NCBI RefSeq assembly: GCF_000313565.1
Contig: NZ_HE578931.1
Coordinates: 91,665-143,563 of the forward strand
Direction of reading: 5' to 3'
DNA: 51,899 nucleotides
DNA from: Dielma fastidiosa
GTDB lineage: Bacteria > Bacillota_I > Bacilli_A > Erysipelotrichales > Erysipelotrichaceae
A program made the translations under genes and the position numbers. The notes under the pieces are model-generated. The model did not search any database and had not been told where the DNA came from. It was given only the letters and a program-made list of their open reading frames with translations. Below, one piece after another: positions 34,986 through 45,690 of this stretch. Within the stretch, counting starts at the first letter, position 1, and every line of letters starts with the position of its first letter.

Positions 34986-36284
34986 ATGAAAAAAGGAAGT
35001 CTTCCAGTTATCAATGAGTATCATCCATTAACGGGGTTATATAATTTTGATGCCTTTTTTAAAAAAGCGGCAGAAATCATCGAAAAAAACGATAAGTACC
35101 CCATGTGTATTATCAGTTTAGATATTGAGCATTTTAAGATTTATAATGATTGGTATGGCCGTAAAGCAGGTGACCGACTCTTAAATTTGCTGGCAGGGGA
35201 TATTAAAAAAGCAGCTGAAAGTGCCGGAACTATTGCCGGTCATTTTGGTAATGATGATTTTGCACTGTTATATCCGGTGACCGACGATTTAGAAAAATGG
35301 TTGGCTAAACAAATTGAGGAATTTGCTAAATACACAGATGCTATCAGAGAGTTTTTGCTGAAGGTTGGAATCTGTGAAATTAATCATTCTATGAGTCCGG
35401 CTGAAGCTTATGACTGTGCGCAGCTGGCGTTAAAGTCAATTGAAGGAATTCATGACCAACGGGTTGTTAAGTATGACTGCGACATGAAAAGAAAACTGAT
35501 GAGTGAACAGTTTTTAACGCAGGAAATAAGACAGGCATTAAAAAAGAAGGAATTCACTTGTTATATGCAGCCTAAATGTCAGATTGATACAGGTGAAGTG
35601 ATCGGCTTAGAGGCATTGGTTCGCTGGCGTCATCCTAATGATGGAATTGTAGGACCCGATGTGTTTATTCCCATTTTGGAACGTAATCGAACAGTTCATC
35701 AGCTTGATCTATTCGTATGGGATCTAGTTTGCAGTCAGCTTCATGAGTGGATCAAAGAAGGTCTTCACGTAGTGCCTGTTTCGGTCAATGTATCACGAAT
35801 TGATTTTTATTCTTTGGATTTGCTGTCTATCTTTAAAGGATTATTAACTAAATATGATCTGTCGGCTGACTTAATAGAGCTGGAAGTAACCGAAAGCGCC
35901 TATATTGAGGATTATAAAATTGTTACGGATACAATTGATCAATTAAGCAAAGCGGGTTTCAGGATATCAATTGATGACTTTGGAAGTGCCTATTCTTCAC
36001 TGAATATGCTGAAGGATATTGAGGTTTCAGTGTTAAAATTGGATATTAAGTTCATTCAATTCAACAGAAAAAACCTTTTGCGGACAATGGCAATTTTAAA
36101 AGCAATTAAACAAATGGCAAGAGATTTAGGGCAGACTATCATCGTAGAAGGTGTAGAGACGCAGGAACAGGTAAATCTTTTAAAACAGCTGGATTATCAT
36201 TATGCGCAAGGTTATTATTTTTATCATCCATTGACGATTGAACAAGCGACTTGTTTGCTGAAGCCTGCAAAAGTTATGAATTAA
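34986..36284 (+). CDS. GGDEF(degenerate)-EAL cyclic-di-GMP phosphodiesterase
   Basis: A 432-residue cytoplasmic protein. GGDEF (~15-160) is degenerate: the signature reads G88-N-D-D-F, so cyclase activity is doubtful; it may bind GTP as a regulator. EAL (~170-425) is intact: E209 in LEALVRW, NVSR, LEVTES, DDFGSAYSSL, KLDIKFI, VEGVET and QGYYFYHP. It closely resembles the GGDEF1-EAL part of the protein at 11171, so the two are probably paralogues. Predicted role: hydrolysis of c-di-GMP. RBS GGGAAAGGG precedes ATG 34986. A strong terminator overlaps its end. Confidence 0.92.
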   Translation: MKKGSLPVINEYHPLTGLYNFDAFFKKAAEIIEKNDKYPMCIISLDIEHFKIYNDWYGRKAGDRLLNLLAGDIKKAAESAGTIAGHFGNDDFALLYPVTDDLEKWLAKQIEEFAKYTDAIREFLLKVGICEINHSMSPAEAYDCAQLALKSIEGIHDQRVVKYDCDMKRKLMSEQFLTQEIRQALKKKEFTCYMQPKCQIDTGEVIGLEALVRWRHPNDGIVGPDVFIPILERNRTVHQLDLFVWDLVCSQLHEWIKEGLHVVPVSVNVSRIDFYSLDLLSIFKGLLTKYDLSADLIELEVTESAYIEDYKIVTDTIDQLSKAGFRISIDDFGSAYSSLNMLKDIEVSVLKLDIKFIQFNRKNLLRTMAILKAIKQMARDLGQTIIVEGVETQEQVNLLKQLDYHYAQGYYFYHPLTIEQATCLLKPAKVMN

Positions 36285-36812: not shown

Positions 36813-39260
36813 TTATAATGTCTGTTCCTTAATCAATGGAATAAAAATTTCAGTAATATATGCTAATTCCGAAGGCGGAATTTGAATGCCAAAGGTTTCA
36901 TTCACATAACGCAGGTGATTTTCAATCAACTGAATCAGCTTGCTGTGTTCCTTAGTGAAGCGTTTTAATTTCTGATAATCAAGCGGTTCTTTGCGGATTA
37001 CCCTTTCCAGCATGCTGGTTGTATGAGTGATAAACTTTACTAGAATTGATTCATCCGATTGAATATGCAGTTCATCAAGGATACCGTTTAATGAAACCAA
37101 TAAAGTATCCACTGCCTTCTGCGGATTGATAAAGGTTAATATTTCGCCAAGAAAATCATCTGTCAGCCTTTGAATAAATTGAGAGTTGCTGGCCTCATTT
37201 TCGATGGCCGTGTTTTCAAAATTCTCAAAAGCATCAAGTGAAATCGTATAATTAGCATCACTGCTGCGTAATTCATCAACAATTTTTATCAGCATTGGCA
37301 GATTTAAGCCGGTCATGACTGCGGTTTTTATCCCCGTTGCTTCATATACTGCGCTTTGTAAAGAAGTGAAGGGCATCATATCCGTAAGAATCAGTACCCC
37401 AGAGCCTTGATTGACAAAGTGTGCCCGATCATAAATCTTAAGCAAGAATGCTTTTAATGATTCTTCATAGCCATAATCAAGCGCTTCAATTCTGAATTTA
37501 TCCTTTTCCGTTGGATTGATAAAACGCACCATTTCTTTCGCAATGCAGCTGCCATGACTGATTACTAAAACACCGATCGGTTTTTGATATAAGACCTGAT
37601 AGATGGCTGATAAGAAATCACAGATACCTTCTTTTTCAATTTGACTGATCTTAATATTATAGATAGCATTCATGCTCTGTACGATATCATTGCTTAATTC
37701 AGTGAATAATGGCTGAGTATGTTCATTTACTTCTGGGGTGAAAGGTGCCGGTATATTATTTTTAGTACGCTTGATAGCATTGGCTACCTGTAAGATTAAC
37801 CCAATAAATAAATTAGAGTTCAGGCTTAAATTGGTAAAAATCATTTCCCGGGTGATTATTTCATAGATTGTATCAACAGCGATGGGTGTAAGCATTGCTT
37901 TAATAGCGATCTGCTGACGCTTCGGCATGACTTTTAAAAGGGATAAACGCTGGGCTGTATATTCAGACAAACCGATATTGTCCTCGTTATCCTCTAATAA
38001 TTGTACGTTATTCTCATCATGATATAAATACTGTGTATCACTGCAACTACCATTTTCATCAAAGAAGATATTTTCATTAGGAAACTGATTCAGAATCAGC
38101 GAAATTTTCTTTTTGCTGTCACCATTATAAGTGCGGTTAAGCAGATCGTTTGATAGATGCTGGAAAGAAATTGTTAAGATCCTAGAATGGCTTTTTAGAA
38201 TATCCAGATAAGCCCGTGAGCATGCGAGTTTGATCTCACTGCGCAGCTGAGTAATATTTGTCTTGTAACGCGCTTGAACAAAACAGAATAAAACATCTTT
38301 AGAGAACCGAATCGGTAATTTAATATTTTTAGCTTCTTTACTGAAATAGCTTAATATTAATTCAATCTTTTCTTTAATATCACGCTGATCAATATCCGGC
38401 AGACTGATTATGACTGGGAAGTATTTAGAAACAGAAATAATATTATCTGAATCAGCTTCTTCAGTTGTTGAGGCTAATATCATCGCGTTAACATCACGAA
38501 GATGTGACTCGCCCGGTTTAGTATATGTACCTTTATGAATCAGATCAATCAGCAGTTCTTTTCCTTTGCTGTCAAGCTTCTGTACTTCATCAAAGAATAA
38601 AATACCGCCATTAGCTTGTTCAATTAAATTTTTAGTCCGTTTTTCTAAGCTGCCAAATAAGCGCAGCCGCAGCCGCTGAGCATTGTTTGCATAGTCCATA
38701 CAGTTAATAATCACAAAATTAGCATTATGAGAAAACTTACCGGTTTCCATCGCGTAGTCGTACATGTCATGGGCAAACTGCATTTTACCTATGCCAAGAT
38801 TTCCGCACAATAAGGTAGGCAATCCATAAGGCGGGTAATTAATAGCTGCTTTTGCTGACAGAATTTGTTCAACCAGTGATCCGCGGGCGCCTACTTGCAT
38901 ATCGAATGAGGAAGCCTGATGTTTTGTTTTAGTTGGTTCATCACCAGCTTCCAGATAATCAGAAAGCTGCTTACCCTTAGGAATAAAGGTAGGTATATAT
39001 TTAATAGGATATGCATTTACAAAATCCTCTAATGACAGATAAAGAATCGGTCTGCCTTGTATTTTAATTAATCGGCCTTCACGCCATAAGTCATTCAGCT
39101 CTTTGGAAGCATTGGAACGCTCGATTTTTAATATGATGGAAATGACATAAGCATCCATACCGATATTACTGTAATTCTTAGCGGCTATTGCTTTTTTGGT
39201 CAGATCCTGTACTACCTGATAGACTCTTTCTTTTCTTGAACTCTTAGTATCCATATACAT
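36813..39260 (-). CDS. LevR-like PTS operon regulator (AAA+, PRD, IIA-Man) without GAFTGA
   Basis: About 815 residues in the LevR layout: N-terminal helix-turn-helix (~10-80); AAA+ domain (~125-400) with Walker A GNLGIGKM (Met where Ser/Thr is usual) and Walker B GGILFFDEV; PRD1 (~430-540); a IIA-Man-like domain (~550-680, VLVISHGS); and PRD2 (~700-810, FITHTTSMLERV). In LevR, the loop between LFG and the A-D-G-G box carries GAFTGA for sigma-54 contact. Here that stretch (LFGSLEKRTKNLIEQANGG) is about seven residues shorter and has no such motif. PRD1 has Gln where its phospho-His is expected (GLILQVANAI); PRD2 keeps His. Divergent from the mannose-family PTS operon it should control. Start at ATG 39260 after AGAAAGG; ATG 39254 is possible. 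Confidence 0.85.
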   Translation of the reverse strand: MYMDTKSSRKERVYQVVQDLTKKAIAAKNYSNIGMDAYVISIILKIERSNASKELNDLWREGRLIKIQGRPILYLSLEDFVNAYPIKYIPTFIPKGKQLSDYLEAGDEPTKTKHQASSFDMQVGARGSLVEQILSAKAAINYPPYGLPTLLCGNLGIGKMQFAHDMYDYAMETGKFSHNANFVIINCMDYANNAQRLRLRLFGSLEKRTKNLIEQANGGILFFDEVQKLDSKGKELLIDLIHKGTYTKPGESHLRDVNAMILASTTEEADSDNIISVSKYFPVIISLPDIDQRDIKEKIELILSYFSKEAKNIKLPIRFSKDVLFCFVQARYKTNITQLRSEIKLACSRAYLDILKSHSRILTISFQHLSNDLLNRTYNGDSKKKISLILNQFPNENIFFDENGSCSDTQYLYHDENNVQLLEDNEDNIGLSEYTAQRLSLLKVMPKRQQIAIKAMLTPIAVDTIYEIITREMIFTNLSLNSNLFIGLILQVANAIKRTKNNIPAPFTPEVNEHTQPLFTELSNDIVQSMNAIYNIKISQIEKEGICDFLSAIYQVLYQKPIGVLVISHGSCIAKEMVRFINPTEKDKFRIEALDYGYEESLKAFLLKIYDRAHFVNQGSGVLILTDMMPFTSLQSAVYEATGIKTAVMTGLNLPMLIKIVDELRSSDANYTISLDAFENFENTAIENEASNSQFIQRLTDDFLGEILTFINPQKAVDTLLVSLNGILDELHIQSDESILVKFITHTTSMLERVIRKEPLDYQKLKRFTKEHSKLIQLIENHLRYVNETFGIQIPPSELAYITEIFIPLIKEQTL

Positions 39261-39283
39261 CACAGCCTTTCTAAATAAAATTG

Positions 39284-39321
39284 TATCAAACTTTAATCAT
39301 GAATAATACACAAGTTTGATA
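39284..39321. promoter_or_regulatory. Operator candidate: TATCAAACTT / AAGTTTGATA inverted repeat
   Basis: TATCAAACTT (39284-39293) is the exact reverse complement of AAGTTTGATA (39312-39321), centres 28 bases apart, just upstream of the LevR-like gene. It shares the TATCAA/TTGATA core with the sites further right. Confidence 0.55.
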
Positions 39322-39346
39322 ATATTTAAAAATATTTTATCTTATG

Positions 39347-39371
39347 TATCAAAATTGATAAAAAATTGATA
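39347..39371. promoter_or_regulatory. Operator candidate: TATCAA-AA-TTGATA plus an extra TTGATA
   Basis: A perfect 6-2-6 palindrome at 39347-39360 is followed by another TTGATA at 39366-39371; a further TATCAA lies at 39427-39432. With the 39284-39321 pair this gives six half-sites in 150 bases between the regulator and the PTS operon. Confidence 0.55.
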
Positions 39372-39469
39372 AAAATATGTATTTATTTCAAGGTTTATCA
39401 TTATAATATCGCTCATAAGCCTAAAATATCAATAATACACTTTAAATCTGTATTGCTTGTTTTGTATTT

Positions 39470-39498
39470 TTGACATGGATGTATTATGCTCATATAAT
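39470..39498 (+). promoter_or_regulatory. Sigma-A promoter of the mannose-family PTS operon
   Basis: Exact TTGACA (39470-39475), 17-base spacer, exact TATAAT (39493-39498), 21 bases before the first gene. No TGGCAC-n5-TTGC sigma-54 element was seen in the intergenic region. Confidence 0.85.
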
Positions 39499-39519
39499 GG
39501 TGTCAAAGGAAGTGGAAGA

Positions 39520-39927
39520 ATGGCAAACTTATTAATTGTCAGTCATGGCAACCTGGCTAAGGAGATGACGGCGACAGCCAGAATGATTATGGGGGATTTT
39601 GAAGGTGTTCATGTACTTGGGCTTCAGGCTGATGATCACATTGAAACATTTTACGAAAAGATTAAAAAGGAATGTGAGCAGGCGTCTGATGGTTTGCTGA
39701 TACTCACTGATTTAGCTGGCGGAAGTCCTTTTATTCAGGCTTCAAGATGTTACTATGATATGTTTGAAAGAAAAACAATTGAGGTGGTCACGGGTACAAA
39801 TCTCGCAATAGTAATTGAGTGCATCAGTCAGAGAGCCTATAAAAATGTGCATGAATTAAAAGAGCTTGCACTGTCCGTAGGAGCAGGATCAATAAAATCT
39901 TTTGAAATTAACAAGGAGGTGAAATAA
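39520..39927 (+). CDS. PTS IIA component, mannose family
   Basis: A 135-residue cytoplasmic IIA of the mannose/fructose/sorbose family. It takes phosphate from HPr on H9 (LLIVSHGNLAKEM) and passes it to IIB. The later GGSPF (LTDLAGGSPFIQAS) and VTGTNLAIVIE are family hallmarks. Start chosen at ATG 39520, with AAAGGAAGTGG upstream; the longer frame begins inside the promoter. First gene of the operon. IIB starts one base after its stop, with AAGGAGGTG as ribosome binding site. The sugar cannot be read from this protein. Confidence 0.92.
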   Translation: MANLLIVSHGNLAKEMTATARMIMGDFEGVHVLGLQADDHIETFYEKIKKECEQASDGLLILTDLAGGSPFIQASRCYYDMFERKTIEVVTGTNLAIVIECISQRAYKNVHELKELALSVGAGSIKSFEINKEVK

Positions 39928-39928
39928 C

Positions 39929-40402
39929 ATGAATTTCACATTAGCAAGAGTTGATGAAAGACTGGCACATGGTCAGATCATTACATCCTGGACAAAGTAT
40001 TTAGGTGTATCAACGATATGGATCGTTGATGATCAGATCTGCAAGGATGATTTTATGAAACAGGTGCTGCAGCTGTCTGCACCTTCCGGCATTAAGATTG
40101 AGATTTACAGTGTTCAGCAGGCCGTTGATAAAGCTGAACAGGAAAAAGATTCATCCGCTAAAGTATTATTATTGTTTAAGCGCATTCAGTATGTTTTAGA
40201 TGCTGTGAAACAGGGGCTTGACATCAAGGAAGTGAATCTGGGTAATTTAGGTTCATTAGCTGGCCGTAAATCAATTTCAAAGAATGTAAACTTAAATCCC
40301 GCTGAAATTGAAATGGTTAAAGAATTAATGGAAAAAGGCCTGACCGTTTATCTCCAGATGCTTTATACAGATTCTAAAGTAGATATCAAAAATATGATAT
40401 AG
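39929..40402 (+). CDS. PTS IIB component, mannose family
   Basis: A 157-residue cytoplasmic IIB. The phosphorylated residue is H14 in VDERLAHGQIITSW, where most relatives read D-x-R-L-I-H-G-Q-V; Ala13 is a small change. WIVDDQ, the SAPSGIKIEIYSVQQA stretch and the NLGNL loop match the family. It phosphorylates the sugar during transport through IIC and IID. The IIC start codon lies 16 bases after its stop. Full length. Confidence 0.93.
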   Translation: MNFTLARVDERLAHGQIITSWTKYLGVSTIWIVDDQICKDDFMKQVLQLSAPSGIKIEIYSVQQAVDKAEQEKDSSAKVLLLFKRIQYVLDAVKQGLDIKEVNLGNLGSLAGRKSISKNVNLNPAEIEMVKELMEKGLTVYLQMLYTDSKVDIKNMI

Positions 40403-40418
40403 AAAGGTGGTAGAGTTT

Positions 40419-41168
40419 ATGTTGCTGGTTTATGCAGTTATTGCAGGGTTGTTGTGCTGGATTATTTCATCTGGTGCGCCAATGTGGTCAAGATGGTCAT
40501 TGTATTTTGGTGCTCCAATCATTGCAGGTGCATTCTGGGGACTTGTTCTGGGGGATTTAGGTTATGGTTTAGAAGTAGGTGCCACAATTATGATGGCATA
40601 TCTTGGTTTAGTAGCTATAGGCGGCAGTATTCCAAGTGATCTCGCTTTAGCAGGCTATCTTGGTGTATTAATGACAATGCTTTCAGGTGCTGACGCATCA
40701 GTTGGCTTGGCAATAGCTGTGCCGCTTGGTGTTTTAGGATCATTATGTTCAACAGCCAAAATGTCATTAAATCCAATCTGGGTGCATATTGCGGATAAGT
40801 ATGCGGCAAAAGGCGATACCCGCGGTGTTATTTTAATGAATCGCGTAGGTTCACAAGTATTTCCATTCCTGACTTATTTTATTCCAGTATTCTTATGCGT
40901 CTATTTTGGTGCGCCGGTATTGGAAACATTAATGAATAATATACCTGCGAAATTATTAACGATTCTTTCTTTAATGGGTCATATGATTCCAGCCTTAGGT
41001 TTAGGTATGTTGTTTAATTCTATTTATAAGAAATCAATTCTGCCTTATTTGCTGATCGGTTTTGTATTTGCTTCATATTTTGGCGCTAATACAATGTCAT
41101 TAGCAATCTTAGGTGTAGCAGGCGGCTTGCTGCATCTGTACTTCAAGAAGAAAGAGGAGGCGGCTTAA
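40419..41168 (+). CDS. PTS IIC component, mannose family
   Basis: A 249-residue membrane protein with several hydrophobic segments, the IIC channel half of a mannose-family permease. Typical segments include the opening GLLCWIISSG, the Gly-rich GLVLGDLGYGLEVGATIMMAYLG, and SIPSDLALAGYLGVLM. Start chosen at ATG 40419 after AAAGGTGG; a GTG at 40407 would lie in the ribosome binding site. IID begins one base after its stop. Sugar specificity is not readable. Confidence 0.9.
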   Translation: MLLVYAVIAGLLCWIISSGAPMWSRWSLYFGAPIIAGAFWGLVLGDLGYGLEVGATIMMAYLGLVAIGGSIPSDLALAGYLGVLMTMLSGADASVGLAIAVPLGVLGSLCSTAKMSLNPIWVHIADKYAAKGDTRGVILMNRVGSQVFPFLTYFIPVFLCVYFGAPVLETLMNNIPAKLLTILSLMGHMIPALGLGMLFNSIYKKSILPYLLIGFVFASYFGANTMSLAILGVAGGLLHLYFKKKEEAA

Positions 41169-41169
41169 T

Positions 41170-42006
41170 ATGGAAGAAACAGTTAAAACTGAAAATCAGA
41201 TTACTTTATCGAAAAAGGATTTGAATAAATCTTGGTGGTATTGGGTATGCTGGGGTCAAATCTGTTATAACTATGAGCGTATGATGGGACTTGGTTTCTG
41301 TCAGTCAATGATTCCCGTATTAAAGGGATTATATGGTGACGATAAAGAAAAGCTCGCGGAAGGTATGACGCGGCATCTGACGTTCTATAATACTGAAAAT
41401 ACATGGGGTGCGGTGATTCCAGGCATCGTAGCTTCTCTTGAAGAAGGAAGAGCTAACGGTCAGGATATTGATGATGAAACAATCGATAATTTGAAAACAG
41501 GTTTAATGGGACCGCTGGCAGGCTTAGGTGATTCAATCACGCAAAGCTTAGTTAAGGTTATTCTGCTTTCAATTGCTATCGATATGGCTGTGCAAGGTTC
41601 AATTGTTGGCGTTCTGATTTTCGTTTTAGGCTTCTCAGCGTATGCGTTGGGTGTCAGCCACTTTGTATATTTCCAGGGTTATAAATTTGGTAAGACAGCA
41701 ATTATGAAGATTCTTGGCAATGGCATGATTAAGGATATGACAGAGGCATTAGGCGCTCTGGGTATGATGATCCTCGGTGGCTTGATTGCGAATAATATTC
41801 CAGTAAAAACCGCTTTAACCTATTCTTTGCAGGGAATGTCAACAGAAGTTCAGGGCATGCTTGATTCAATTCTGCCTAATTTATTATCAGTTGCAACTTT
41901 TGGTGTTGTGGTCTATATGCTGAGAAAAGGCTGGAAACCGACTAAAATCATGATTTCTTTAATGCTCGCGTCGGTTGTGCTTGGCTTCTTTGGTATCTTA
42001 GCATAA
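41170..42006 (+). CDS. PTS IID component, mannose family
   Basis: A 278-residue IID membrane subunit that pairs with IIC. Signatures are the N-terminal LSKKDLNKSWWYWV followed by NYERMMGLGFCQSM, then FYNTENTWGAVIPGI, LMGPLAGLGDSI, and the C-terminal hydrophobic segments. RBS AGGAGGCGG ahead of ATG 41170. Completes a full four-subunit transporter with the preceding genes. Confidence 0.93.
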   Translation: MEETVKTENQITLSKKDLNKSWWYWVCWGQICYNYERMMGLGFCQSMIPVLKGLYGDDKEKLAEGMTRHLTFYNTENTWGAVIPGIVASLEEGRANGQDIDDETIDNLKTGLMGPLAGLGDSITQSLVKVILLSIAIDMAVQGSIVGVLIFVLGFSAYALGVSHFVYFQGYKFGKTAIMKILGNGMIKDMTEALGALGMMILGGLIANNIPVKTALTYSLQGMSTEVQGMLDSILPNLLSVATFGVVVYMLRKGWKPTKIMISLMLASVVLGFFGILA

Positions 42007-42021
42007 GAAAGGATTCAATCT

Positions 42022-42837
42022 ATGAACTATTTAGAAGAACACAAGAAAATATTCGGATGTGATAAACCAATTATTGGCTGTCTGCATCTGCTGCCTTTAC
42101 CTGGCACCCCTTATTATAATGAGGAAACAACAATCGAAAAGAATATCGAACGTTTAAAGCATGATGCGGCGATTCTAATGGAAAATGGCGTGGATGCGGT
42201 AGTCTTTGCGAATGAGGGTGACCGTCCTTATCTGACATCAGTCGGCCCGGAAGTCATCGCTGCCTATGTGCGTGTAGTTACTGAGGTATTACCGATGATT
42301 CATGTACCATATGGCTGCGGATGTCTTATTGATCCGATTGCTACGCTTGCGATTGCGAAAGCAATTGGCGCTAAATTTATTCGTACTTATGTAACAAATA
42401 GTTATGAGGGTACGTTTGGTCATCAAGAATTCTGTCCGGCTGAAGTATTCAGATACCGTCATCAGATTGATGCTGATGATGTACATGTTTATACTTATTT
42501 TGATGCACACGCTGGAGTATGCTTGGATACACGCCCAATTGAAGCTCAAATTTCCAGTGGCTTAGCTGCGCTGCCGATTTCTGGTATTCTCGTTGGCGGG
42601 CCGCGGGCTGGATTACCGCCGGAAACAAGTGCATTTGCAAATGTAAAAAAAGCATTCCCAGAGATTCCATTGATTCTAGGAAGCGGTGCAAATAAAGACA
42701 ATATTGCTGATTTAATGCCTTATTGTGATGGTTTGATTGTTGGCACAACAACGAAGCGTGATCAATATCTGTATAATGAAATGGACCCAGAGCGGGCAAA
42801 GGAATTCATTGCAGCGGCTAAGGCAGCAAGGAAATAA
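42022..42837 (+). CDS. BtpA/SgcQ family protein
   Basis: A 271-residue TIM-barrel-like protein of the BtpA/SgcQ family. BtpA was linked to photosystem I assembly in cyanobacteria. SgcQ lies in an Escherichia coli operon with PTS genes and has no proven reaction. Signatures visible are IIGCLHLLPLPGTP, DAVVFANEGDRPY, VPYGCGCLIDP, FIRTYVTNSYEGTFG and the phosphate-loop-like GLIVGTTTK near the end. It is the last gene of the PTS operon, 15 bases after IID with RBS AGAAAGGA, so it probably acts on the imported sugar phosphate. No dedicated kinase, aldolase or isomerase accompanies it in the operon. Confidence 0.88.
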   Translation: MNYLEEHKKIFGCDKPIIGCLHLLPLPGTPYYNEETTIEKNIERLKHDAAILMENGVDAVVFANEGDRPYLTSVGPEVIAAYVRVVTEVLPMIHVPYGCGCLIDPIATLAIAKAIGAKFIRTYVTNSYEGTFGHQEFCPAEVFRYRHQIDADDVHVYTYFDAHAGVCLDTRPIEAQISSGLAALPISGILVGGPRAGLPPETSAFANVKKAFPEIPLILGSGANKDNIADLMPYCDGLIVGTTTKRDQYLYNEMDPERAKEFIAAAKAARK

Positions 42838-43220: not shown

Positions 43221-44330
43221 TTAAATATTATTAAACGCTGATACTATAAGCTCTTTACTTTCTTTTAGTAAATGGCCATAAGTATTATTAACCATCTCAG
43301 GGGTATCACCTATTTGCTTTGCTATTGCAAATGCACTTATTCCTTGACTTAGCAGATAAGTAACATGTGAATGTCTGAAATCATGTATGCGTATTTTCTT
43401 TAAGTTAGCTTTTTGAGCATAATTTTTATTGGCTAGTTCAAGAGGAGTTAAACCAAAAGGAGCGAAGTAGCCAAAAACAAAGCGATCCATGTCTTTGCTT
43501 TTTATTTTATAGTAATATTTTAGTTCTTTCAAAGCCTCTAAGCATCTTTCAGGTATAAGCACAGTTCGATAACTATTATTTGTTTTTGGAGTAGTAACGA
43601 TACGGTTTCGAGAGTCATATGTTTTTTCTATTTTAATACATTTATTTTTGAAATCAATATCATTCCATGTTAGAGCTAAGGCTTCACCTTTTCGTAAACC
43701 ACAAAAGTATAAAGTAAGAAAGAAAGCTTTATATTTCAATGTGTCGGCTGCATCTATAAATGAATTAAATTCTTCAGGTGAATAAAATTTCATTTCTTTC
43801 TTTTTTTCTGATCTGAATTTAATCTTTTCAAAATTAATGTTTTTATCTATGAAACCATGTTTTAAACCATAATTTAAAGGCATTTTAAATAACGATTGTA
43901 TTTTATCAAGATATGAATTAGAAAAATGAGTGCCATCTTTTTTAGTTGTCTCTAATAGTGATTGCTGCCATATCCTTATTTTTGCATTTGTAATAGCTGA
44001 TATTTTCATATTTCCAAAATACTCTTTAATTCTATTATCATATAATTGTTGAAAATCTTGATAAGTTCTTAATTTTCCATCTTTTTGATAATCTTCAAGA
44101 TATAAATTAAATAAATCTTCATAAGTTATTTCGTTGTTTATATCAGCTCTAGCTTTTATTATAAGGTTATTTTCATAACTTCTGGCAGCTTCATCACTGG
44201 TGAAACCAGCCTTATAATAATCTATACGTTTTCCATCAATAGTGATTTTCCCTTTAGCGTACCAGAATTTAGTTTTTCTTTTTCTTCCGGTTGCGGGATT
44301 TACTATTTCTTTATAATATTGTTTGATCAT
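43221..44330 (-). CDS. Prophage tyrosine integrase
   Basis: A 369-residue tyrosine recombinase that inserts and excises the prophage. The N-terminal part (~1-60: YYKEIVNPATGRKRKTKFWYAKG) resembles the arm-binding domain, followed by a core-binding domain (~65-170). The catalytic domain has the Arg in YFCGLRKGEALALTW, the HDFRHSHVTYLLSQG box (His-x-x-Arg), and Tyr in NTYGHLLKE. Start chosen at ATG 44330 (MIKQYYKE), with AAGGAGGG upstream. It faces the attachment site as in most temperate phages of Bacillota. No excisionase was recognised nearby. Confidence 0.93.
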   Translation of the reverse strand: MIKQYYKEIVNPATGRKRKTKFWYAKGKITIDGKRIDYYKAGFTSDEAARSYENNLIIKARADINNEITYEDLFNLYLEDYQKDGKLRTYQDFQQLYDNRIKEYFGNMKISAITNAKIRIWQQSLLETTKKDGTHFSNSYLDKIQSLFKMPLNYGLKHGFIDKNINFEKIKFRSEKKKEMKFYSPEEFNSFIDAADTLKYKAFFLTLYFCGLRKGEALALTWNDIDFKNKCIKIEKTYDSRNRIVTTPKTNNSYRTVLIPERCLEALKELKYYYKIKSKDMDRFVFGYFAPFGLTPLELANKNYAQKANLKKIRIHDFRHSHVTYLLSQGISAFAIAKQIGDTPEMVNNTYGHLLKESKELIVSAFNNI

Positions 44331-44472
44331 TTGAAACCCTCCTTGTCTTAATTTTTGATATGTAGTACAATTTGGGTACAATAAAAGGAATGTTCGCCAA
44401 AACACTATTTTATTGTACCAAAGCAATATTACTAGTATTGCTTATTATCTCCTGTTACCAGCGGGAGATTTT

Positions 44473-44937
44473 TTATTGAAGAAATTTGTTGGGTATTTCT
44501 ACTCCATTCTTTTGTAAAAGTAGCAGATACTCTTTGTTACTTAATCTATTAAGTGATTCTTGATAATCTGTTTTAGCTTTTGCTAAGTTGATTTTATAAG
44601 TGTTTCTTTGATCAAGTGTATTAATTACTGAATGAATTGTTAGAATTATGAGTATAGAGCCTATTAAATATTCTAATGGGTGAAGATACGGCATATTATA
44701 ATCATAAGCAACAAATAATCCATCAAATATAAATAATGTCCAATTCCAAGAAAATGTTTTATCTGGATAATTAGCGCCTACAATACGAAGTCCGGGTTCT
44801 ATATAATCCTTATCAAAAAACTGTTGACCACAAGATTTGCATGTGATAACAGGACAGCCATATATTTTTTGATTCTTAGGTATTCTAACCAAGTATTTAT
44901 ATTTACAATACGGGCATCTTTTATCCACATATTCCAT
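44473..44937 (-). CDS. Zinc-ribbon membrane protein of the prophage lysogeny region
   Basis: A 154-residue protein of unknown function. The N-terminus has a zinc ribbon (C8-x2-C and CKSC, with a C-P-V between). It is followed by two hydrophobic segments (~65-80 and ~90-110) and a cytoplasmic coiled tail (AKAKTDYQESLNRL). It lies between the integrase and the repressor on the lysogenic strand, 12 bases after the repressor stop, so it would be expressed in the lysogen. Genes in this place often alter the host or exclude other phages, but that is only positional reasoning. Confidence 0.65.
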   Translation of the reverse strand: MEYVDKRCPYCKYKYLVRIPKNQKIYGCPVITCKSCGQQFFDKDYIEPGLRIVGANYPDKTFSWNWTLFIFDGLFVAYDYNMPYLHPLEYLIGSILIILTIHSVINTLDQRNTYKINLAKAKTDYQESLNRLSNKEYLLLLQKNGVEIPNKFLQ

Positions 44938-44949
44938 AAATATATCTCC

Positions 44950-45666
44950 CTAAATTTTCCCTAGTACTCTACCAATGCAAATAGTACTTTCAGTTAAATT
45001 AATATCGTTAAAAGATTTGTTATGACTGATAAGTACTCCATCACCTAACTCTTTAATATAACCGCTACCATCTATCATGAATACACCGATTTCACCTCTG
45101 CTAATGCAGGGGCTTTTTTTAACGGCGACTTTATCTCCATTATAATATGTAGGCTGCATACTGTCACCAGACACACCAATAACAAAATCAGCCTCCTTGT
45201 ATTCTTCAGGAACATTAATGACCTGAGTAGGAATATCATCAAATACAAACAAACCTGTGCCTGCTGATAGACCTGTAAGATATTCCGTCTTGGTATAAAG
45301 ATAAGGTGCTGGTACTTCATCTAATTGTAAAGATTGTTCTACTATGCGCGTATATTCGACATCAAGTAGTTGATCTATTGCTTTTTTTCCGTGCCTATCA
45401 AGGGTGCGGTATTTTTTTATATGTTCTTGTTCATAAGGTGTTACCTTAAATTCGTTTTGTTTCTTACTTACTCCATCTTGAAATAGATAATTCGCATCGC
45501 ATTCTAATACATCTATTAGTTTATATAACACGGATTCTTTAGGACCACTTAAGTCTAATTCATAGTTTCCGACAGCAGATTTTGTGATTCCGAGTAATTC
45601 TGCAAGTTGGCTTTGAGTTAATCCTTTTGATTCGCGCAGTTCGCGTATTCTTTTTCCAATGCTCAT
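44950..45666 (-). CDS. CI-like repressor: XRE helix-turn-helix plus S24 peptidase
   Basis: A 238-residue phage repressor. XRE domain (~1-65: SIGKRIRELRESKGLTQSQLAELLGITKSAVGNYE) and a C-terminal S24 LexA/CI-like domain with the nucleophile in VSGDSMQPT and the Lys partner in YIKEL. Self-cleavage after RecA activation is expected to trigger induction. Start chosen at ATG 45666, about 8 bases after AAAGG; ATG 45675 is too close to that site. Transcribed from the minus-strand promoter at 45691-45719, divergent from the Cro-like gene. Confidence 0.9.
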   Translation of the reverse strand: MSIGKRIRELRESKGLTQSQLAELLGITKSAVGNYELDLSGPKESVLYKLIDVLECDANYLFQDGVSKKQNEFKVTPYEQEHIKKYRTLDRHGKKAIDQLLDVEYTRIVEQSLQLDEVPAPYLYTKTEYLTGLSAGTGLFVFDDIPTQVINVPEEYKEADFVIGVSGDSMQPTYYNGDKVAVKKSPCISRGEIGVFMIDGSGYIKELGDGVLISHNKSFNDINLTESTICIGRVLGKI

Positions 45667-45690
45667 TTTATCCATCCTTTCTATAACTAT

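Follow-up and report, generated by a model that had tools for sequence, protein, structure and literature searches.

The window analyzed here is a stretch of 51,899 nucleotides from Dielma fastidiosa in which a gene for a regulator of 816 aa on the reverse strand (positions 36,813–39,263) is divergent from an EIIABCD-BtpA operon on the forward strand. The operon encodes a mannose-family PTS EIIA (39,521–39,927; ATG start probable), a sorbose-subfamily EIIB (39,929–40,402) that is the presumed phosphate donor to the PRD2 domain of the regulator, EIIC (40,407–41,168), EIID (41,170–42,006) and a BtpA/SgcQ family protein (42,022–42,837). For the regulator, ATG codons at 39,260 or 39,254 are possible starts in place of GTG at 39,263. 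Between the two transcription units lies an exact sigma-A-type promoter, TTGACA-17-TATAAT (39,470–39,498, forward strand), which had been pointed out in an initial annotation and which proved to be the sole exact copy in the window. Upstream of it is a predicted operator, AATACA-N9-TGTATT (39,434–39,454, forward strand), a perfect 6+6 dyad, and the composite reads AATACA(9)TGTATT(15)TTGACA(17)TATAAT. The promoter spacer holds an extra half-site, TGTATTAT (39,480–39,487, forward strand). The initial annotation had seen no -24/-12 element at the operon, and our promoter scan likewise found none upstream of the PTS genes; a loose scan of the whole window gave 226 matches versus 234 expected, which is the chance level. 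A literature search on BtpA-PTS associations yielded nothing useful.

Regulators of the LevR family normally switch on sugar-uptake genes via sigma-54 and an ATP-driven motor. The window regulator shares with LevR of B. subtilis and CelR of B. thuringiensis and C. acetobutylicum the domain order HTH-AAA+-PRD1-EIIA(Man)-PRD2, the regulatory histidines of EIIA and PRD2, and a neighboring PTS operon. It had been described as having the whole LevR layout; the order holds, but the layout is incomplete, since the EIIB(Gat) domain expected between EIIA and PRD2 is absent. Unlike LevR and CelR, it also lacks GAFTGA and the arginine fingers, is divergent from its operon, and faces a sigma-A promoter rather than a -24/-12 promoter. 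EIIB is likewise absent from GAFTGA-intact regulators of Thermoanaerobacter (L136, L141), Pelosinus (L143) and Enterococcus (L148, L149). Pfam assigns the protein to Sigma54_activat (PF00158) at 54.9 bits, above the cut-off, together with two PRD stretches and EIIA-man. The EIIA-domain His570 (37,554–37,556; this and all following regulator features are on the reverse strand) is the counterpart of LevR His585, and PRD2 His747 (37,023–37,025) that of LevR His869. PRD1 carries Gln492 (37,788–37,790) at the His position. The initial annotation had drawn attention to this Gln, which is indeed present but carries little weight: the PRD1 His is retained in just 20 of 41 GAFTGA-intact relatives and its mutation in B. 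thuringiensis CelR is without effect (PMC10864463), so we rejected it as a key change.

The AAA+ domain is altered more severely. The L1 region, LFGSLEKRTKNLIEQANGG (residues 202–220; 38,604–38,660), is shortened, and the distance from LFG to NGG is 7 residues less than in canonical paralogs; this bears out the earlier reading of a missing GAFTGA loop, and a search across the entire protein found no GAFTGA-like motif elsewhere. Walker A, GNLGIGKM (residues 154–161; 38,781–38,804), ends in Met instead of Thr/Ser, as had been stated. Walker B, ILFFDE (residues 221–226; 38,586–38,603), is retained. Both Arg are gone from the arginine-finger site, SKYFPV (residues 279–284; 38,412–38,429), which reads LRRIP in the canonical paralogs. 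The loss of the fingers had escaped mention in the initial annotation, as had the kept Walker B FFDE, His570 and His747. An AlphaFold model (pLDDT 78, 8 sequences) still predicts the AAA+ fold of bacterial enhancer-binding proteins (bEBPs), with PspF, NtrX, FleQ and VpsR as best structural matches. Because this scaffold has neither the arginine fingers nor the loop that contacts sigma-54, the protein very probably cannot perform the function of an ATP-driven remodeling motor. Nucleotide binding is possible, as the Walker A Lys and the Walker B FFDE remain.

We read 94 LevR-type ORFs from 146 Erysipelotrichaceae genomes, a family that here includes Merdibacter, Faecalicoccus, Amedibacillus, Longicatena and Breznakia. 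GAFTGA-intact ORFs occur almost exclusively in genomes with rpoN (47 of 48; the other is in G138, an rpoN-negative genome that is 75% complete), versus 27 GAFTGA-less ORFs in rpoN-positive and 19 in rpoN-negative genomes (Fisher p = 2e-6 over related, hence non-independent, sequences, with the near-canonical variants L036 and L065 scored as GAFTGA-less). In a quickly built LG+G4 tree, some of whose branches are long, the window protein falls in clade A (25 rows, 100% SH-aLRT), from all members of which GAFTGA and EIIB are absent. Clade A matches are carried by 20 genomes of the family, 12 of them without detectable rpoN (e.g., Merdibacter massiliensis); among 397 genomes of the family of Mediterraneibacter, we found no further members beyond one already known. 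GAFTGA-less proteins form at least three separate clades (four changes, three of them forced by starred branches), which points to loss of GAFTGA on at least three occasions. Clade B (15 rows) consists of GAFTGA-less regulators of 830–900 aa, including L044, L077, L083, L086, L087 and L090, and no PTS genes were found within the 3–6 kb loci that were read for it.

The motor residues follow the same division. Among GAFTGA-intact relatives, the Walker B Glu and each of the two fingers are present in 42/42. The corresponding counts for the Glu, finger 1 and finger 2 are 3/25, 4/25 and 0/25 in clade A, 0/15, 3/15 and 5/15 in clade B, and 3/13, 0/13 and 0/13 in clade C. Such losses, along with the low identity of the members (~30%), would also be expected of a decaying gene without function. 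We regard this explanation as scarcely credible: reading frames are full-length, R, N, S and N of the HTH core RSNASKELN (residues 49–57; 39,093–39,119) are invariant in all 25 rows of clade A, the PRD2 His is kept in 23 of 25, and the divergent synteny and the operator are conserved across several families, in over 20 genomes.

The D. fastidiosa genome itself (3.6 Mb, 98.5% complete) contains two intact rpoN genes, and we therefore rejected the idea that it has no rpoN. The presence of an rpoN gene had been proposed as a check on sigma-54 independence; it turns out to be non-discriminating and no argument against independence, because each rpoN lies near a GAYTGA LevR-type regulator of its own, on contigs C7 (909 aa) and C4 (938 aa). 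At C7, the -24/-12 site of the PTS genes is perfect, TGGCACGCTTTTTGCT, and at the C4 operon it is a variant, TGCCACGATTCTTGCT. The second rpoN closes an IIA-IIB-IIC-IID-peptidase-rpoN run behind its GAYTGA LevR-type gene (L012:3074–8048), and many rpoN genes of the family adjoin a LevR-type gene. Three LevR-type paralogs of this genome are GAFTGA-less: the window protein, a protein of 824 aa on C1 that is divergent from PTS genes accompanied by two BtpA genes, and C4b (909 aa; L011:6845–9574), a clade C protein in which EIIB is retained and whose gene runs in the same direction as IIB-IIC-IID and IIA genes.

For the promoter comparison, the region upstream of each PTS operon was scanned for TGGCAC-N5-TTGCW, allowing up to 2 mismatches but none in GG or GC. 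With near copies included on both sides, such a site is present at 27 of 29 GAFTGA-intact loci versus 1 of 22 clade A loci (p = 5e-11); the exception, L055, has a site with 2 mismatches. For clade C, none was found on the sense strand within 500 bp at the same mismatch limit. The comparison extends to the same target genes: the GAFTGA-intact regulators of L141, L144 and L158 (a Clostridia MAG) adjoin the same IIABCD-BtpA operon as the window regulator, and there the -24/-12 site is retained (the L158 protein is truncated by a contig edge). The EIIB-less, GAFTGA-intact relatives differ from the window protein in that the GAFTGA loop, Walker B and the fingers are intact and the promoter is of the -24/-12 type.

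The initial annotation had proposed a former sigma-54 activator re-purposed for sigma-A. We find descent from a sigma-54-dependent LevR-type activator and re-purposing for sigma-A strongly supported by the comparisons, because the motor has decayed, GAFTGA and the -24/-12 site have been lost jointly, and the clade occurs in rpoN-less genomes. Independence of the window regulator from sigma-54 is in our judgment highly likely. Because the genome carries two copies of rpoN and also two GAYTGA paralogs of LevR type, the regulator might still use sigma-54, e.g., in mixed rings with one of these paralogs, but this seems very unlikely given relatives in rpoN-less genomes, targets without -24/-12 sites, and operator arms that differ between the window and C1.

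What clade A loci have in common instead is a dyad, WACACA-N9/10-TGTGTW, with a sigma-A -35 element ~15 bp downstream. Counting words without tuning in the intergenic regions of clade A puts ACACAC and ACACACTA/TAACACAC at the top. In the GAFTGA-intact set TGGCAC is the top word, yet TAACACAC is enriched as well, and for this reason the DNA-binding specificity looks ancestral; TAACACAC-like sites are common to the EIIB-less GAFTGA-intact regulators and the window clade. Each arm of the window dyad departs from the clade consensus, and as the changes match one another the dyad is preserved; the genome contains its exact form at 4 places. TATCAAA-type inverted repeats close to the start of the regulator were dropped as candidates for the main operator; they are not among the words common to relatives.

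The composite of dyad and sigma-A promoter was spotted by eye, after most of the loci had been inspected, and scored afterwards, and at up to 6 mismatches it was recovered in 16 of 21 clade A loci, leaving five without it, compared with a mean of 2.0 (maximum 5) in shuffles and 1 of 29 in the GAFTGA-intact set. Among hold-out loci that had not been used in finding it, four of five pass (L137, L142, L154, L210) and L128 fails; L137 and L142 are closely related, and L236, a near copy of L137, was left uncounted. The offset of the -35 element from the dyad peaks at 12–15 bp (9 loci), with 5 loci in the 16–19 bin and at most 3 in any other. At L137 and L142, where the composite is present, the genes divergent from the clade A regulator are three BtpA genes and one HAD-like gene, and no PTS genes were found at these two loci.

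If transcription is taken to start 7 nt past the -10 element, the predicted operator of the window is centered at ~-61. This position, the poor -35 element in most clade A relatives and the retention of the LevR histidines lead us to favor a sugar-induced sigma-A activator. In LevR, phosphorylation of PRD2 by P~EIIB in the absence of sugar renders the protein inactive, and phosphorylation of EIIA by HPr stimulates it (PMC10864463). The window regulator would most likely bind AATACA-N9-TGTATT at 39,434–39,454 and act as a class-I activator of the sigma-A promoter that lies 15 bp further downstream. When sugar is absent, PRD2 would be phosphorylated by P~EIIB and the regulator inactivated; with sugar, PRD2 would be dephosphorylated and the EIIABCD-BtpA operon induced, while HPr-dependent phosphorylation of the EIIA domain may tune the response. 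A sigma-54-independent, PTS-sensing, class-I sigma-A activator is the best explanation overall and a probable one; taken by itself, the claim that the regulator is mainly an activator is somewhat less secure. The window promoter, being perfect, may work unaided.

The opposite sign had been suggested in the initial annotation, namely a repressor that blocks TTGACA-17-TATAAT and is relieved via PTS phosphorylation; a dual role, as in TyrR, belongs to the same alternative. The perfect core promoter, the TGTATTAT half-site in its spacer, and a TGTGT word that overlaps the -35 element in L014 and L049 (the latter also showing the composite) are all compatible with repression. However, the -35 element is poor in most relatives, and the conserved dyad precedes it at a fixed distance that fits class-I activation. 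A repressor would moreover require reversed polarity, because the kept PRD2 His, when phosphorylated, inactivates LevR without sugar. We thus consider repression possible but rather unlikely, and less likely than activation.

Re-purposing of this kind has precedents outside the LevR class. Among GAFTGA-less bEBPs, TyrR, DhaR and HupR, and probably VpsR and YplP, act at sigma-70 promoters (PMC3162934), as do the GAFTGA-less NtrC proteins of Rhodobacter and Caulobacter (PMC10274813). Like TyrR, DhaR, HupR, VpsR and NtrC, the window protein has a sigma-54-activator AAA+ domain from which the L1 motif is missing, and on sequence grounds it faces a sigma-A promoter with a predicted operator nearby. 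These five differ from it in being without PRD/PTS control. For Caulobacter NtrC, a requirement for ATP hydrolysis has been reported (PMC10274813), which is unlikely for the window protein. A 2025 survey noted that Erysipelotrichia tend toward EBP absence, and retained only GAFTGA-bearing proteins (PMC12316311). Our literature search, with most subscription journals outside its coverage, found no PRD/LevR-type GAFTGA-less sigma-70 case.

On balance, we lean slightly toward a broader reading in which LevR-type activators of Erysipelotrichaceae abandoned sigma-54 on three or more occasions. In this reading, the window clade became a class-I activator that is under PTS control but built on an AAA+ scaffold whose motor is dead, its specificity kept, its -24/-12 site swapped for a sigma-A promoter at a fixed distance from the operator, and its members persisting without rpoN. 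Such rewiring would be common to many gut bacteria and would mean that sigma-54 can be dropped without losing control of sugar operons, with regulator and promoter changing jointly and the operator and sensor being retained. Since the window protein passes the Pfam cut-off for sigma-54 interaction, the size of sigma-54 regulons in gut Firmicutes can be overestimated. The switch lends itself to direct tests, as clade A has GAFTGA-intact sisters at the same operon.

As to the surroundings, a gene for a GGDEF-EAL protein (34,986–36,284) lies between the regulator gene and an RsmI-like methyltransferase gene. After the PTS-BtpA operon, a phage-type integrase and a phage-repressor-like gene (43,221–45,675) suggest an integrated element that reaches the contig end.
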